Under the pieces are notes generated by a model. The model worked only from the letters and a program-made list of their open reading frames with translations, was not told where the DNA came from and ran no database searches. Positions 3,184-60,523 of a stretch of 64,000 bases of DNA are shown piece by piece. Where the stretch lies: contig CACJCN010000001.1 in NCBI GenBank assembly GCA_902591925.1, forward strand, positions 1 to 64,000. The letters are read 5' to 3'. Position numbers and translations under genes: made by a program. The stretch is from an uncultured SAR86 cluster bacterium (GTDB lineage Bacteria; Pseudomonadota; Gammaproteobacteria; Magnimaribacterales; D2472). Within the stretch, counting starts at the first letter, position 1, and each line of letters opens with the position of its first letter.

Positions 3184-5100
3184 TTACTTTTCTTCTTCTT
3201 TTACTTCCTCAAATTCAGCATCTACAGTATTTTCAGAGGAATCGACTTCATCTGTATTAGTATCAGATTGTCCTTCCGCGCTTTCCTGTTTATATAGTTT
3301 TTGAGTTAGTGGTGTTAGAACATCATTTAGATTTTTTGTCGCAGACTCAATTGCTTCGATATCTTCAGATGATATTGCTTCCTCTAATCCTTTGAGCGCC
3401 TCCTCTACTTGATTCTTTTCTTCATCTTCAAGCTTATCCTCTGATTCCTCAATAGTTTTTCTTGTGGCATGAACCAACATATCGGCATTATTTTTAGTTT
3501 TTACTAATTCTTCAAATTTCTTATCATCTTCAGCATTTGCCTCAGCATCTTTCACCATCTTTTCTATATCTTCGTCTGATAATCCGCTAGATGCTTTAAT
3601 AACAATTGATTGTTCTTTCCCAGTATTCTTATCTTTTGCTGAAACATTCAAAATTCCGTTTGCATCAAGATCAAATGAAACTTCGATTTGTGGAACTCCT
3701 CTTGCTGCCGCAGGTATGTCAGTAAGATTGAATTGGCCTAAAGATTTATTCTGAGCAGCCTGAGTTCTCTCTCCTTGAATAACATGAACTGTTACGGCAG
3801 TTTGGTTATCTTCGGCTGTCGAAAATATTTGAGATTTTTGAGTAGGAATAGTAGTGTTTTTTTCAATTAGTGGGGTAGCTACTCCACCTAGAGTTTCAAT
3901 ACCAAGTGTTAATGGAGTAACATCTAAAAGCAATACATCAGTTGTATCTCCAGATAAAACTGAACCTTGAATAGCAGCGCCAACAGCTACTGCTTCATCA
4001 GGATTTAAATCTTTTCTAGGATCTTTACCGAAAAAATCTGCAACTTTCTTTTGAACAAGTGGCATCCTTGTTTGTCCACCAACGAGCAAAATCTCATTTA
4101 TGTCTCCCTTTGATATTTTTGCATCCTTGAGTGCAAGTTTTAGAGGCTCAAGGCTTTTATCGACCAAATCCTCTACAAGAGACTCTAATTTAGCTCTAGT
4201 AATCTTGTGGACAAAATGTTTTGGCCCAGAACTATCAGCAGTTATATACGGCAAATTAACTTCTGTTTGCTCAGATGAAGATAGTTCAATTTTGGCCTTT
4301 TCAGCAGCTTCTTTTAATCTTTGAAGCGCAAGAGGATCACTTTTCAAATCAAATCCAGATTCCTCTTTAAATTTATCAACAAAATAGTCAATCAATCTTA
4401 AATCGAAATCTTCACCGCCCAGGAAAGTGTCTCCATTTGTAGATAAAACTTCAAATTGATGTTCTCCATCAACGTCAGATATTTCAATAATAGATATATC
4501 AAAAGTTCCTCCTCCAAGATCATATACTGCTACCGTTGAATCTCCCTTGCCTTTATCAAGACCATACGCAAGCGCAGCTGCAGTAGGTTCATTGATAATT
4601 CTTTTAACATCTAAGCCTGCAATTTTACCTGCATCTTTCGTTGCCTGTCTTTGTGAATCGTTAAAATAAGCTGGTACGGTAATTACTGCTTCTTTTACTT
4701 CATGCCCGAGATAATCTTCAGCAGTTTTCTTCATCTTTTTTAGAACTTCTGCAGCAACCTGTGGTGGGGCTAATTGTTTTTTTGATGCTTCAACCCAAGC
4801 ATCACCATTATCTGCTTTAACAATTTTATAGGGAACCATGTCAGCATCTTTACTAACAACTTCATCATCGAATGTTCTACCTATTAATCTTTTGATTGCA
4901 TACAAGGTGTTTTCAGGATTAGTAACAGCTTGTCTTTTAGCTGGCAGTCCAACAAGAACTTCATCGCTATCTGTATATGCAATCACAGAGGGTGTTGTTC
5001 TTGCACCCTCAGCATTTTCAATAACTTTTTGTTGTTGGCCTTCAACAACAGCAACACAGCTGTTAGTTGTTCCTAAATCAATTCCTATAATTTTTGACAT
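3184..5100 (-). CDS. dnaK: Molecular chaperone DnaK (Hsp70)
   Basis: [30 protein letters not shown], 638 aa. Confidence 0.99.
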
Positions 5101-54231: not shown

Positions 54232-55299
54232 ATGAAAGCATATCAAGTTGTTGAAAACGGTAAACCTCTAGAAAAAAGAGAAATAGAAAAACCTATACCG
54301 ACTGGGAAAGAAATATTAATTAAAACTGTAGCATGTGGTGTTTGTCATTCAGACGTCCATATCCATGAAGGTTTTTTTAGTTTGGGGGAAGAAGCAAAAC
54401 TTCCAGTACCTCTAATGACCGATGCGCTTGCTATGGGTCATGAAATATATGGTGAAGTGGTTGAGTTAGGGGAAGGTGTTTCGGGTATTGAAATTGGGAA
54501 AAAATATGTTGCATATCCCTGGATAGGATGTGGTAATTGTGATGAGTGCGCTAATGATAGAGAGCATTATTGTTCGCCTTTAACAACAAAAAATTTAGGT
54601 ATTAATGTAGACGGTGGTTATGCTGAATATGTTCTTGTGCCTGATTCTAAATATTTATTTGATGCCGGGGACACTCCAGACGAAGTTGCTGGAAGTTACG
54701 CTTGCAGAGGTTTGACTGCATACAGTGCGCTTAAAAAAGCAGATTTAGTTAAAGGTCAAAATACTGTTGTTATCATAAGCGCTGGAGGGCTTGGATTACT
54801 TTCATTAAAAATAATTCAAGCAGCCTACTCTATTAATCCTATAGTTATTGACATTGACGATGAAAAACTTGAACTAGCAAAACAAGCTGGAGCATCTGAA
54901 GTAATTAATTCAAGAGATGAGAAGTTGTTCGAAAAAATTGCAGAACTCACTGATGGTGGTGCTACCAGTGTCATTGATTTTGTAGGTGCAGCTGAGACGT
55001 TTGAGCTTGCATCTGGAATGTTCGGTATGAAAAGAGGCGGCACATATGTAATTGTTGGCTTGATTGGAGGAGAAACAAACTTACAGCTTCCAATGACAAC
55101 TTTAACTGCAAGAACCATACGAGGAGTTTATGTTGGGAGTCTGCAAGAAATGAGTGAATTAATGGAGCTTGTAAGAGAAAACAAAATTGAACATGTAGAG
55201 GTTGAAAAAAGAAATGCCTCAGAAGCAAATAAAACTTTAAATGACTTGAAAAATGGAAAAATTAATGGTCTAGTATGTTTGACTCATGATCATGAATAA
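54232..55299 (+). CDS. Zinc-dependent alcohol dehydrogenase
   Basis: ACGVCHSDVHIHEG catalytic zinc, GCGNCDECANDREHYC structural zinc, ISAGGLGLLSLK Rossmann motif. Confidence 0.95.
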   Translation: MKAYQVVENGKPLEKREIEKPIPTGKEILIKTVACGVCHSDVHIHEGFFSLGEEAKLPVPLMTDALAMGHEIYGEVVELGEGVSGIEIGKKYVAYPWIGCGNCDECANDREHYCSPLTTKNLGINVDGGYAEYVLVPDSKYLFDAGDTPDEVAGSYACRGLTAYSALKKADLVKGQNTVVIISAGGLGLLSLKIIQAAYSINPIVIDIDDEKLELAKQAGASEVINSRDEKLFEKIAELTDGGATSVIDFVGAAETFELASGMFGMKRGGTYVIVGLIGGETNLQLPMTTLTARTIRGVYVGSLQEMSELMELVRENKIEHVEVEKRNASEANKTLNDLKNGKINGLVCLTHDHE

Positions 55300-55555
55300 A
55301 AAATATCTACTATATTCATTCCTATTTATAGCAAGTTTGTCATTTCACAGCTTTGCAGATCATCATGATCACTTCAGCTTTGAAGATGAGCATTTGGCTG
55401 AATGCCAAGCTTGTGAAGAAAATGTTGAAATTAAAATTGCTTCAACAAAAAGTAAAAGCAATTTTTTAAAAGAATCCCCTGAATCAAATCTAATCAATAG
55501 ATTTGTAAGTCAAAAACAAAAATCAAACCTATCAAGAGCTCCACCTTTAAATTAG
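55286..55555 (+). CDS. Small exported protein with His-rich segment
   Basis: MIMNKKYLLYSFLFIASLSFHSFADHHDHFSFEDEHLAECQACEENVE; signal peptide then HHDH and CxxC; overlaps end of ADH gene. Confidence 0.7.
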   Translation: MIMNKKYLLYSFLFIASLSFHSFADHHDHFSFEDEHLAECQACEENVEIKIASTKSKSNFLKESPESNLINRFVSQKQKSNLSRAPPLN

Positions 55556-55579
55556 TTAACTTATAAATTTTTAACTAAT
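55551..55579 (+). promoter_or_regulatory. AT-rich hairpin followed by a T-run between small protein and TonB receptor
   Basis: ATTAGTTAA-CTTATAAATTT-TTAACTAAT then TTTT; 9 bp perfect arms. Confidence 0.55.
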
Positions 55580-55598
55580 TTTTCATAAAGGAGGAAAC

Positions 55599-57854
55599 AT
55601 GAAAAAATTTTTAAACGCAGTTATTGTATTAATTGCATTTCATTCGATAAATATAATTTCACAGGATGAAGTTGAAGAAATAGTTGTTACTTCAGCATTT
55701 ATTGATACAAGTGAGATTAATAATCCACTGTATATTATTGATGGTACTGAATTCTCAGATGGAGCAACTACAAGTTTGGGTGATGCGATTGATGAGTATC
55801 TTGGTGTTTCAATTGCAGACTATGGTTCAGCTGTTGGCCAACCAATTATTAGAGGTATGTCAGGCCCAAGAGTAAAAATACTTAAAAATGGTGTCGTGAA
55901 CAGAGATGTGTCTGGTCTTGGTGTTGATCACTTGAATGACGTGGACTTGAATGATATTTCTCAAGTAGAAATTGTCAAAGGACCCTCATCACTTCTATAT
56001 GCAAATGGGACCATAGGAGGAATTATCAATGTTGTTGATGATTTAATTTCAACTAAGAATTTTGAAATTCCTGAGGTTTCAGTTGGATATGAATCTCAAT
56101 CTGTAAATGATGGAAATTCAGAGTTTGTAAATTTAAAAGGCAATGTTGGCGGTTTGAATGTTAATTTTGGCTATAAAAATACTGATTTTGGAAACTATGA
56201 TGTTCCTAGTGGTGCTGTAATTCACTCAGAGGAGGAGCATCATGATGATGAAGATCACGATGAAGATGAACATCATGATGATGAACATTCTGAAGAGGAT
56301 TTAGGATACATAAATAACTCTGATTTTGCTGTAGAGGCAACAAAGTTCGGTTTATCCAAAGTAACAGACTGGGGCTACATTGGCTTTGGAATTGATAATC
56401 TTGAAAGTGTTTATGGTATTCCCTTTCATGGCGATGAGCATGAAGATGAGCATGGTGACGATCATGGTGATGAAGAAGAGCATGGTGAAGAAAGAATTTT
56501 TTCCACTACTGATTCTGAAACTTTTTCTATAAGAGGTTCATATAATGTTAATGGAAATCTTATTAATAAAATTGACTTTACTTATCGTGATTCAGATTAC
56601 TCGCTTACAGAAGATCATGCAGAAGAAGAGCATGATGAAGAAGAGGAGCATGAAGAAGAAGAACATGAAGAACATTCTCCAACAGTATTCATGAATGAAG
56701 CTGTTGAGTATGGTGCTACTTTTGATATTTCAAATGACTCTTCAACTCAAAAGGTTGTTGTAAACTTTGTCGATGAAGATAACTCTATTGTTGGCGAAGA
56801 AGCATTCATGAATCCAGCAAATAGTGAAGAATTAACAATTGGTTATTACTTAAGTAAAGACCTTGGAATGTTTGATCTTGATTTTGGTTTTAGATTGGAC
56901 CAAATTGAAAGAAGTGGAAGTGTTTCTGAGGAAGAACACGGAGATGATCATGGAGATGAGCATGGAGATGAGCATGGAGATGTTGATTATTACAATATAG
57001 ATGATACAACAAGCAGTTTTGCTGTAACTCTTGGTAGAAGCCTTGGTGATAATCTTGGTGTCAGTCTTGGTTATGCTAGTGTTGAGAGACTACCATCTTC
57101 AATTGAGCTCTTCATGAATGGACCTCATATGGCAACAGGAAGATTTGAAGTCGGTGATCCAAATCTAAACAGTGAAACTTCAAATAACTTTGATATCACT
57201 TTTAATTTTGATAATGGTGATTTCTATGCTCTCGCAAGTTTTTATATCACTGACGTGGATAATTACATTGCTCTAATAGATGAAGAAGATGATCACATGG
57301 ATGAAGACGAACATCATGAAGACGAAGATGAGCATCATGAAGGTGAGGACGAGCATCATGAAGGTGAGGATGATGATCATGGTCATGGTAATTTAATTCA
57401 TGCTAATTACATGCAAGAAGATGCTGAGTTTGATGGATACGAGATTGAATTTGGAAGAAGTTTTGATCTTGGCTCTGGCGAGCTTGCTTTATCTTTTGGA
57501 AGAGATGTTGTGAATGCTGAATTCGCAGATGGACATTACGTACCAAGAATTAATCCAGCAAGAAACATTTATTCTTTAGTTTATACTCAAGATGATTTGC
57601 TCTTTAAACTAATGCTTAAAGATGTTGAAAAACAAAATGATATTGGTGAAGGTGAAACAGCAACTGATTCTTATCAAATGCTTAACACAAGACTAACCAA
57701 AACATTCAAAGGAATGGGCGAAGGTGAACTAAAAGTTTCGCTTTTCGCTAATAACCTTCTTGATGAAGTTGCCAGGAATCACTCTTCTTTTGTGAAAAAT
57801 GAAGTTCCTCTTCCTGGAAGAAATTACGGATTAAAATTTAATCTAACCTTCTAG
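55599..57854 (+). CDS. TonB-dependent receptor with His/Asp/Glu-rich loops (ZnuD-like)
   Basis: EVEEIVVTSAF TonB-box-like, GQPIIRGMSGPRVKILKNGVVNRDVSGLGVDHLNDVDLNDISQVEIVKGPSSLLYANGTIGGIINVVDD plug; five H/D/E-rich tracts. Confidence 0.9.
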   Translation: MKKFLNAVIVLIAFHSINIISQDEVEEIVVTSAFIDTSEINNPLYIIDGTEFSDGATTSLGDAIDEYLGVSIADYGSAVGQPIIRGMSGPRVKILKNGVVNRDVSGLGVDHLNDVDLNDISQVEIVKGPSSLLYANGTIGGIINVVDDLISTKNFEIPEVSVGYESQSVNDGNSEFVNLKGNVGGLNVNFGYKNTDFGNYDVPSGAVIHSEEEHHDDEDHDEDEHHDDEHSEEDLGYINNSDFAVEATKFGLSKVTDWGYIGFGIDNLESVYGIPFHGDEHEDEHGDDHGDEEEHGEERIFSTTDSETFSIRGSYNVNGNLINKIDFTYRDSDYSLTEDHAEEEHDEEEEHEEEEHEEHSPTVFMNEAVEYGATFDISNDSSTQKVVVNFVDEDNSIVGEEAFMNPANSEELTIGYYLSKDLGMFDLDFGFRLDQIERSGSVSEEEHGDDHGDEHGDEHGDVDYYNIDDTTSSFAVTLGRSLGDNLGVSLGYASVERLPSSIELFMNGPHMATGRFEVGDPNLNSETSNNFDITFNFDNGDFYALASFYITDVDNYIALIDEEDDHMDEDEHHEDEDEHHEGEDEHHEGEDDDHGHGNLIHANYMQEDAEFDGYEIEFGRSFDLGSGELALSFGRDVVNAEFADGHYVPRINPARNIYSLVYTQDDLLFKLMLKDVEKQNDIGEGETATDSYQMLNTRLTKTFKGMGEGELKVSLFANNLLDEVARNHSSFVKNEVPLPGRNYGLKFNLTF
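56940..56982 (+). repeat. 12 nt tandem repeat GGAGATGAGCAT (about 3.5 copies) in the receptor gene
   Basis: GGAGATGATCAT GGAGATGAGCAT GGAGATGAGCAT GGAGATG, encoding GDDHGDEHGDEHGD. Confidence 0.9.
57303..57380 (+). repeat. Imperfect ~21 nt tandem repeat encoding E(D/G)EDEHH units
   Basis: GAAGACGAACATCAT, GAAGACGAAGATGAGCATCAT, GAAGGTGAGGACGAGCATCAT, GAAGGTGAGGATGATGATCAT. Confidence 0.9.
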
Positions 57855-57872
57855 TATCTTAACTTAGAAATA

Positions 57873-57903
57873 AAACTGGCCCAAATTTGGGCCAGTTTTT
57901 TTA
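57873..57903 (+). terminator. Strong Rho-independent terminator after TonB receptor
   Basis: AAAACTGGCCCAAATTTGGGCCAGTTTTTTT. Confidence 0.95.
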
Positions 57904-57955: not shown

Positions 57956-60523
57956 ATGCGATTAAAGATAAAAGTCTTTTCTTTGTTAATTTTTTCTTTT
58001 TTAATTTACTCAAACGAAATTGAAGAAATAGTTGTAACAGGAACATTTCTAAAAGATGCAGAAAGTGATTTATCGCCTGTTCAACTTATTAATGAAAATG
58101 ATTATAAAAATTTCAATATCACAAATATTGGTGAAATAAGTAAATATTTGAACGTTAGCTCAGGATCTAGATTTCAAACAAATGCACTTGAGGGAGTTGA
58201 CCAGGGCATGTCATCAATTACCTTAAGGGGCTTGGATGCTTCCGCTACTTTGTTGCTTTTAAATTCTAGAAAACACACTTTTTCAGGAACGCCATCCAAT
58301 AACGGAAATGGCTATATTGATGCAAACATCGTTCCAGAAATTGCTATTGAAAAAGTAGAAATTCTAAAAGAAGGCGCAACATCAATATATGGCTCAGATG
58401 CAATTGCTGGAGTTATTAATTTTCTTACATTTAAAGAATTTGAAGGATTCAGGGTTAAAGCCGGTAAACAGACTACTACAAACTATAATCAAGATGATAA
58501 TAGTTTTGGTATTTTGTTTGGAACAAAAATCCTAGATGGAAAACTTGTGATTGGCTTCAACACTCTTGAGAGGTCTCCATTATCTGCAAGTGAAATAGAT
58601 GGGATTGCTGAATTGGGATTAAGTGGTCTTGGTAAAACCTTCAAGGTACTTGGTCCGGATACTGTTTCATCTGGACTTTTTGCTGGAGTTTACCCAAAAG
58701 CAAGTCAATTTGTTCCAGATCCAAATTGTGAAGAAAATGACGGTGTTCTTGATGGAAGTTTTTGTAGATTTTTATATGGAGAAAGGTTCAATATTGTAAA
58801 TGATGAGGATCATCAAAAAATTTATTTGAATTTTTCAAAAGAAATGGGGGTTTTAAAACATAATTTCCATTTCTTATCATCTAAAGTTGATGTAAACGAT
58901 AATCCTCAATCTCCTTCATACCCTGCTCTTCCTTTTTTATCAAGAAATATAGAGCCTGGTGAGGGTGGAAGCCCTTTTAATGTTCCGGTTGTATGGTATG
59001 GCAGGCCTCTTGGCTCGGAATTCAAGTCACCCTACTCACCTAAGGACATTGAACAATTTAATGTTAATTACAGTCTTTCTTTTTTAATCAATCAAACAAC
59101 TGATGCTGAGATATCTATAACTATGAGTGAGCACTCTAATGATCACTTTAGGCCTGATATTATTGATTCAAGATTTCTTGCTGCTATAAAAGGAAATGGT
59201 GGTCCTGATGGAAATCTTACATGGAATATATTTGATTCAACTCAAAATCCAAAATCTCTTATTGATTATGTTAGGGGCGCAGAAGTTTCATCAAAAGTAG
59301 CTGACCTTATTTCTGTTGATGGAATATTCAATAGGAAATTAAAAGACCTTAATTTAGCTTATGGGTTTCAACTAAATAAAGAGAGTTTAGATATTTATTA
59401 TGATGAAGTTAGCAGAGCTGAGTTTGATAAGGATGGAAAGTTAGTGAAAACAGCTGACCTTTTCTTTTTGGGCGGAGGAATTAATTTATCTAAATCAAGG
59501 ACTAGCAATGCTTTTTTTCTTGAAATAGAAAAAAGTATTAAAGAGACTTTAGATTTAAGAGTTGCAGCAAGATATGAGTCTATGAAGAATGAATCATCAT
59601 TCGATCCAAAGATTTCAATGAAATATAAAGTAGCTGATGCTCTAACGATACGATTTTCCAAAGGAACCGCTTTTTCTGCACCATCTATGGCTCAAATGTA
59701 CTCAAGTGAAATTAATCTTGGAAGCGTAAGAGACGTTAATGATTCGGTTTTTGTAAGACAAGCTTCAACAGGTAATCCAAATTTGAAGCCAGCTACCTCA
59801 ACGAATTCAAATATTGGACTAATATTTCAAAGAAATGATCTTAGAATTAGCATGGATGTTTGGGAGATAGAGTATGAAGATAGAGTCGAGGTAGAGAGTG
59901 CTCAAGCAATATTATCCTCAAATCCCTTTGGACCAAGTATTACAAGAAATGAATTTGGTGATCTTATTGGAGTAACAACCACCTACTTCAATGAAGATAA
60001 TACTTTGGTAAAGGGGATTGATTTTCAAATACAATATTTTATAAATTTGAAGCAAAGCGATCTTTCTATAAATTTGATGGGTACCGACTTATCTGACTTC
60101 AAAACTCCAAGCCTAACAAATCAAAACTCAATGGTTAATCGTGTTGGAAAGTTTAATTTTGATACTCATACTTTTTCTCTACCAAAGAAAAGAATTAATT
60201 CTTTCGTAAGCTGGAACTTTAAAGATTTAAGCATAAGCTTAAACTCAAGATATTTGGATGGATATGTTAATGAAAGATCCATTACTGGGTTAGGACTTAC
60301 TTACGGATATTCCAATCGAGTTAAATCTTTCTTTGTTCATGATATATCTTTTAACAAAAAACTTTTTGTAACAAGTGGTGATCTAGATTTAAGATTATAT
60401 CTTTCAAATATATTCGATAAATCTGCTCCAAGGTTATATGATGCACCTGATTTTAGTTTTGATACTAGATTGCATGATCCTAGGGGAAGAATTCTAGGAC
60501 TTAATATTGAGTATAATTTCTGA
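57956..60523 (+). CDS. TonB-dependent receptor
   Basis: EIEEIVVTGTFLKDAESDLSPVQLI; plug EIAIEKVEILKEGATSIYGSDAIAGVINFLT; C-terminal aromatic NIEYNF. Confidence 0.93.
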   Translation: MRLKIKVFSLLIFSFLIYSNEIEEIVVTGTFLKDAESDLSPVQLINENDYKNFNITNIGEISKYLNVSSGSRFQTNALEGVDQGMSSITLRGLDASATLLLLNSRKHTFSGTPSNNGNGYIDANIVPEIAIEKVEILKEGATSIYGSDAIAGVINFLTFKEFEGFRVKAGKQTTTNYNQDDNSFGILFGTKILDGKLVIGFNTLERSPLSASEIDGIAELGLSGLGKTFKVLGPDTVSSGLFAGVYPKASQFVPDPNCEENDGVLDGSFCRFLYGERFNIVNDEDHQKIYLNFSKEMGVLKHNFHFLSSKVDVNDNPQSPSYPALPFLSRNIEPGEGGSPFNVPVVWYGRPLGSEFKSPYSPKDIEQFNVNYSLSFLINQTTDAEISITMSEHSNDHFRPDIIDSRFLAAIKGNGGPDGNLTWNIFDSTQNPKSLIDYVRGAEVSSKVADLISVDGIFNRKLKDLNLAYGFQLNKESLDIYYDEVSRAEFDKDGKLVKTADLFFLGGGINLSKSRTSNAFFLEIEKSIKETLDLRVAARYESMKNESSFDPKISMKYKVADALTIRFSKGTAFSAPSMAQMYSSEINLGSVRDVNDSVFVRQASTGNPNLKPATSTNSNIGLIFQRNDLRISMDVWEIEYEDRVEVESAQAILSSNPFGPSITRNEFGDLIGVTTTYFNEDNTLVKGIDFQIQYFINLKQSDLSINLMGTDLSDFKTPSLTNQNSMVNRVGKFNFDTHTFSLPKKRINSFVSWNFKDLSISLNSRYLDGYVNERSITGLGLTYGYSNRVKSFFVHDISFNKKLFVTSGDLDLRLYLSNIFDKSAPRLYDAPDFSFDTRLHDPRGRILGLNIEYNF

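Follow-up and report, generated by a model that had tools for sequence, protein, structure and literature searches.

A 64,000-nucleotide stretch of DNA from an uncultured SAR86 cluster bacterium (GenBank assembly GCA_902591925.1, contig CACJCN010000001.1, positions 1 to 64,000; referred to here as the window) contains a small upstream open reading frame (uORF) followed by the gene of a TonB-dependent receptor. We consider it likely that these genes, at 55292-57854, form a two-gene unit in which a ZnuD-type zinc receptor is placed under the post-transcriptional control of a metal-responsive, probably zinc-responsive, arrest peptide. The small gene looks more like a switch than a metal carrier: it has the apparent parts of a metal-sensing arrest leader, with a CruR-like peptide and a CutF/SecM-like hairpin. 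A preliminary description of this DNA had proposed that the small protein is a metal chaperone, which is probably wrong, because an invariant Ala-Pro-Pro (APP) two codons before the stop, a fixed spacing between CxxC and RAPP motifs over a diverging linker, and a hairpin between the RAPP codons and the Shine-Dalgarno sequence of the receptor indicate a regulatory arrest leader. We infer the stalling of the leader, its sensing of metal, the identity of that metal as zinc and the direction of control.

Leader peptide and its conservation

The small open reading frame at 55286-55555 encodes 89 residues, and its start is more likely the ATG at 55292 (MNKKYL...), because homologues start there. Of 107 SAR86-family genomes, 85 encode the receptor (18 of the 19 that are near-complete) and 77 encode the small protein. 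Genome G000 has 1.2 Mb and a completeness of 93%. Across SAR86 the small gene lies approximately 35-50 nucleotides 5′ of the receptor, and a leader is found just upstream in 76 of the 77 receptor loci with enough upstream sequence, SAR92 and Porticoccaceae relatives included. The pairing of a small exported protein with a receptor, as put forward in the preliminary description, therefore stands: both open reading frames are present, the small gene accompanies orthologous receptors, and the receptor does not group with non-metal receptors.

The small protein has no family match in Pfam or NCBIfam. In particular, a comparison of 23 SAR86 leaders with Pfam DUF2946 gave no match at E ≤ 1, and the matches in 3 of 10 non-SAR86 leaders are weak and below threshold. 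Across a diverse set of leaders, invariance is limited to one Phe in the signal peptide, the first of the two CxxC cysteines and the APP at the C terminus. Among 95 distinct junctions the terminal motif reads RAPP in 80 and QAPP in 15, in each case with few residues before the stop; the codons vary synonymously, and therefore the peptide is what is conserved. The layout is that of the RAPP-type (RQH) arrest peptides, with a RAPP-like motif near the C terminus of a small exported uORF on the same strand as the next gene.

RAPP arrests ribosomes by blocking formation of the Pro-Pro bond, with the two prolines in the P and A sites (PMC10951233; PMC12992588), and QAPP is classed together with it (PMC10987492). 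RAPP and RGPP are active behind a wide range of N-terminal sequences and are over-represented in small exported uORFs, among them uORFs that precede TonB receptors (PMC12992588).

The distance from CxxC to RAPP in SAR86 loci is either 40 residues (59 cases) or 41 (53) in all 112 CxxC-bearing sequences, with some genomes represented by more than one locus; four further loci have no CxxC. A non-redundant set (n = 47, including one CDYF variant) again contains spacings of 40 or 41 only, with linker identity falling to 5-7% and an N-terminal part of 35-51 residues, and outside SAR86 the spacing is 37-45. A linker that keeps its length but not its sequence is the pattern expected from a tunnel-length constraint. 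Assuming that about 30-35 residues are held inside the tunnel, the CxxC would sit roughly 10 residues outside it at the stall. SecM arrest is known to be released, at a shorter distance, by a small zinc finger that folds on binding zinc (PMC4571824).

Locus L128 also carries QAPP and lies outside genus g5, the SAR86 genus in which this variant is found. In SAR86 genus g7 (L226-L230), a Gly/Ser-rich exported protein of about 120 residues is encoded directly 5′ of the leader.

RNA hairpin at the receptor Shine-Dalgarno sequence

A hairpin that sequesters the Shine-Dalgarno sequence of the downstream gene, as in SecM and CutF, is present between the leader and the receptor, with the last codons of the leader forming one arm. 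In the window its folding energy is -14.0 kcal/mol (z -2.95), and over 40 clusters the mean z is -1.93 against a null that combines synonymous codons and dinucleotides. In an arm-swap test on 25 SAR86-like clusters, each arm paired better with its own partner by 4.4 kcal/mol, compared with 0.54 ± 0.40 for 60 null sets taken through the same procedure.

Receptor and candidate zinc ligands

The receptor possesses a Plug domain and a TonB barrel by Pfam search. ZnuD is its best NCBIfam profile (189.6 bits), ahead of the hemin (97.9), B12 (57.6) and copper (34.7) receptors; the score lies below the 950-bit cut-off of the ZnuD family (NF038289), and ZnuD is still the top family. Its top Protein Data Bank (PDB) match by sequence is ZnuD (PDB entry 4rdr). 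An AlphaFold2 model was built from 22 homologues and is of moderate confidence (mean predicted local distance difference test score (pLDDT) 65.8; predicted template modelling score (pTM) 0.68). In a Foldseek search with this model, the ZnuD entries 4rdr, 4rdt and 4rvw occupy places 1-4, with TM-scores of 0.69-0.84 depending on normalisation.

The zinc ligands of ZnuD are Asp99, His100, Glu340 and His499 (PMC4557270). With a chain offset of 14, verified on the residue clusters that the paper lists, their equivalents in the SAR86 receptor are D110, H111, E338 and H510, and all four are invariant in alignments of 13, 22 and 7 receptors (A2, A3 and A5). Glu401 (in GEEAF) was considered as the fourth ligand and dropped, as the chain numbering places Glu340 at the last Glu of NDYRHDE, which is Glu338. 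The receptor contains no cysteine.

The preliminary description had noted five His/Asp/Glu clusters, and these are confirmed: the five tracts hold 30 of the 36 His residues of the receptor. They recur, with variable lengths, in SAR86 homologues and are therefore not a chance feature. In the AlphaFold2 model each tract lies between an odd barrel strand and the next even one, by which strand parity all five are predicted to be on extracellular loops; these are low-confidence loops of the model.

The receptor shares with ZnuD of Neisseria meningitidis the plug-barrel fold, the Asp-His-Glu-His tetrad and His/Asp/Glu-rich extracellular loops. It differs in that the identity over the fold alignment is approximately 20%, its His/acid tracts are longer and more numerous, and its score is far under the ZnuD cut-off. 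It is a divergent ZnuD-type receptor, outside the ZnuD family by curated score, whose substrate would be a metal, most likely zinc; the earlier proposal of a ZnuD-like metal receptor, likely for zinc, agrees with the profile, sequence and fold matches and with the complete tetrad.

Proposed mechanism

In the model that we favour, the ribosome would stall at RAPP, the first proline of the motif occupying the P site. The geometry suggests that the stalled ribosome would cover about 55541-55556, so that the hairpin would open, the Shine-Dalgarno sequence become free and the receptor be translated. When metal is plentiful, the His/CxxC segment, which should by then lie beyond the exit tunnel, would bind it, and folding of the metal-bound segment or a changed tension on the chain would release the stall. 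The leader would then be completed, the hairpin would close and the receptor would be shut off; the receptor would thus be made only under zinc scarcity.

Comparison with known systems

On the best reading, the leader would work like CruR combined with an RNA switch of the CutF/SecM type, while failing DUF2946 membership by the Pfam test. CruR of Bordetella pertussis has a CxxC, a 45-residue spacer kept within 1-2 residues and a RAPP, and precedes a TonB transporter; copper relieves its arrest through the CxxC (PMC9426467), and the arrest itself has been demonstrated (PMC12992588). Like CruR (DUF2946) with BfrG, the SAR86 leader is a small exported uORF with CxxC, a C-terminal RAPP and near-fixed spacing, directly 5′ of a TonB-dependent metal transporter. 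In contrast to CruR, it has no DUF2946 match, its spacing is 40/41 rather than 45, and its intergenic region is 43 nucleotides long with a Shine-Dalgarno hairpin, whereas that of CruR is 162 nucleotides with Rho-dependent termination. The downstream receptor is ZnuD-type in SAR86 and copper-linked in the CruR system.

Both CutF (PMC9973294) and SecM (PMC10987492) control their downstream genes through such a Shine-Dalgarno hairpin. CutF, with CutO of Rhodobacter capsulatus (PMC9973294), is likewise a nascent exported metal-sensing leader with an intergenic stem-loop that hides the next Shine-Dalgarno sequence. However, it has CxxxC and a proline-rich end instead of RAPP, it senses copper, and it turns the oxidase on with metal, whereas metal should turn the importer off in SAR86. 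The SecM, ApdA/ApdP and RQH arrest peptides (PMC10951233, PMC10987492) share a signal sequence and a C-terminal R/Q-A-P-P-like motif, and SecM also a Shine-Dalgarno stem-loop; they precede Sec/YidC genes and monitor export, whereas the SAR86 leader has a Cys/His segment and is followed by a metal receptor. A survey of RAPP/RGPP uORFs reported that in Gram-negatives they are over-represented upstream of TonB-dependent receptors, and proposed control by arrest; zinc, hairpins, Shine-Dalgarno control and SAR86 do not come up in its main text. The kind of system is known, and what appears to be new is its zinc target, the way in which its parts are combined and its occurrence in a setting without Zur. 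No zinc-sensing arrest peptide was found in the literature searched, in which CruR and CutF sense copper.

Evidence for zinc

Zinc is preferred over copper because of the receptor type, the ZnuA/ABC-3 genes beside related leaders and the Zur-box-like palindromes upstream of some of them. When receptors were chosen by the ZnuD profile alone in 11 genomes of the class, a RAPP/RGPP leader was upstream in seven, with CxxC in five. In G465 and G164, similar leaders precede runs of outer-membrane protein, ZnuA and ABC-3 genes; G455 has its ZnuA and ABC-3 genes in divergent orientation to the leader. At L186, L187, L188 and L189, RAPP leaders of similar build are followed by the gene of an uncharacterised outer-membrane protein whose C terminus reads HGAH(R/Q/A)(F/Y), and ZnuA and ABC-3 permease genes lie either beyond it or in divergent orientation.

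Palindromes 5′ of the leaders were scored against a 22-position Zur consensus. Scores of 19/22 (G291), 17 (G225), 17 (G246) and 16 (G455) were obtained; shuffled sequences score up to 16, and so G455 is marginal, as is SAR86 genome G047 (16). SAR86 genera g7 and g10 encode a second, Zur-like FUR-family protein, as do single genomes elsewhere in SAR86; Zur-like proteins or box-like palindromes are present in a sister SAR86 genus and in other gammaproteobacteria.

Locus L126 (about 4953-5001), in the complete SAR86 genome G049 (CP097973.1), is leaderless. A palindrome, TGTTATGTTATAACAATG (TGTTATAACA), lies approximately 50 nucleotides 5′ of its receptor. It scores 15/22, inside the shuffle range; G049 encodes a Zur-like protein and its genus has Zur. 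At this locus, control by Zur may have replaced control by a leader in the course of evolution, for which these features are suggestive only.

Alternative explanations

The same arrest leader could sense copper or another transition metal, as CruR (PMC9426467) and CutF (PMC9973294) sense copper; CxxC is a known copper motif, and the weak DUF2946 matches of the 3 of 10 non-SAR86 leaders point the same way. We regard this as rather unlikely in view of the ZnuD-type receptor with its full zinc tetrad and lack of cysteine, and of the ZnuA/ABC-3 and Zur-box-like contexts of related leaders. If the small protein were instead a mature periplasmic or surface metal chaperone, passing metal to or from the receptor and with a role for RAPP at the protein level, its export, its His and Cys residues and its co-occurrence with the receptor would be accounted for. 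This is improbable: linker length is conserved and linker sequence is not, the most conserved part is the APP at the extreme C terminus, the RNA hairpin involves the Shine-Dalgarno sequence of the next gene, and there is neither a conserved folded metal-binding domain nor a match to a known chaperone family. A monitor of export of the SecM type, which would stall unless exported, sense no metal and tune the receptor to secretion capacity, fits the signal sequence and RAPP, the layout of a Sec monitor (PMC10987492). With a metal receptor and no Sec component downstream, and a Cys/His segment kept at a fixed distance, we consider it very improbable.

Several observations weigh against a zinc-responsive arrest leader, the reading that we prefer. 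In proteins of E. coli and B. subtilis, the majority of RAPP-like sequences arrest inefficiently (PMC10987492), and the closest of the studied leaders, CruR and CutF, are copper-responsive. The second Cys is missing from some leaders (CDYF in G012, CEYS in L153, and the HTCC2207 group), SAR86 genus g5 has QAPP instead of RAPP (L060, L065-L068, L129, L133 and others), and at one SAR86 locus, L126/G049, no leader precedes the receptor. Pairing of the Shine-Dalgarno sequence occurs in 34 of 40 clusters and in 80% of null sequences, and is by itself weak evidence because Pro-Pro codons complement GGAGG; pairing frequency was therefore dropped as proof of the hairpin, and the stability and arm-swap tests were substituted. 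Within the genus of the window, no pair shows a two-sided compensatory change of the kind expected from classical covariation. Fur is the only FUR-family protein of the window's genome, which has no Zur, and the upstream region in the window has no Zur-like box as scored against the Zur consensus; zinc as the metal in this genome is thus suggested by its relatives.

Genomic context

The overlap of the small gene with an upstream dehydrogenase gene, reported in the preliminary description, amounts to 8 nucleotides between the start at 55292 and the dehydrogenase stop (55297-55299). The suggestion that the dehydrogenase belongs to the unit did not hold: of 96 loci, the gene just 5′ of the leader encodes a zinc-type alcohol dehydrogenase in 32, an unrelated iron-type alcohol dehydrogenase in 17 and another product in 47, and these neighbourhood counts rule it out as a conserved partner. 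The window has the zinc type at 54232-55299, and G080, whose receptor is 96% identical, has the iron type.

The strong terminator described earlier at the end of the unit is confirmed (Table 1). A second, unrelated TonB-dependent receptor is encoded past it, at 57956-60523, with hemin/siderophore-like profile matches and no firm family.

Table 1 Features of the candidate leader-receptor unit in the window
Feature	Position	Strand	Remarks
Leader uORF	55292-55555	+	87 residues when read from the conserved ATG; alternative ATG at 55286
Leader signal peptide MNKKYLLYSFLFIASLSFHSFA	55292-55357	+	Cleavage point placed by eye; hydrophobic N terminus in all homologues
His cluster DHHDHF	55358-55375	+	Start of mature leader; possible metal ligands, from sequence; most homologues His-rich
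CxxC (CQAC)	55403-55414	+	Possible metal-sensing motif; 40 residues before RAPP
RAPP, putative arrest motif	55535-55546	+	Two codons before stop; APP invariant, preceded by R/Q; synonymous codons vary
RNA hairpin, predicted to hide receptor Shine-Dalgarno	55540-55595	+	Arm 55540-55559 (Ala-Pro-Pro-Leu-Asn-stop codons) pairs with 55571-55595
Receptor Shine-Dalgarno GGAGG	55590-55594	+	Sequence
ZnuD-type TonB-dependent receptor	55599-57854	+	751-residue open reading frame; profile, sequence and fold matches
Receptor D110-H111	55926-55931	+	Equivalents of ZnuD Asp99-His100 (plug, zinc ligands); alignment, PMC4557270
Receptor E338	56610-56612	+	Equivalent of ZnuD Glu340 (zinc ligand); alignment
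Receptor H510	57126-57128	+	Equivalent of ZnuD His499 (zinc ligand); alignment
His/acid tract 1	56223-56300	+	7 His; predicted extracellular loop, barrel strands 3-4
His/acid tract 2	56427-56492	+	5 His; predicted extracellular loop, strands 5-6
His/acid tract 3	56610-56678	+	5 His; predicted extracellular loop, strands 7-8; first residue is zinc ligand E338
His/acid tract 4	56925-56981	+	4 His; predicted extracellular loop, strands 11-12
His/acid tract 5	57279-57389	+	9 His; predicted extracellular loop, strands 15-16
Intrinsic terminator at end of unit	57872-57899	+	12-bp stem, T-rich tail

Implications for zinc control in SAR86

The usual zinc regulator and the inner-membrane importers have apparently been lost from the SAR86 lineage. 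Among the 107 genomes of the family, ZnuA was found in four and ZIP in none, and since most of the genomes searched have no recognisable Zur, ZnuA or ZIP, the leader may be their only recognisable zinc-uptake control. A wider scenario, offered tentatively and with somewhat more doubt than confidence, is that Zur and ZnuABC were lost in most SAR86 and that zinc control moved wholly to an arrest leader whose Pro-Pro codons serve as an anti-Shine-Dalgarno sequence, with the same class of leader guarding ZnuD-type receptors and ZnuA/ABC operons across the gammaproteobacteria, often beneath a Zur box. If this scenario is true, zinc sensing by arrest peptides would be a general second layer of zinc control. 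The 40/41 spacing over a freely drifting linker would be a natural measure of the position at which bound metal can affect a stalled chain. If the favoured model of the unit is right, zinc import is coupled, within one conserved unit, to a metal sensor in the nascent chain, in a marine lineage that is abundant and has a reduced genome.

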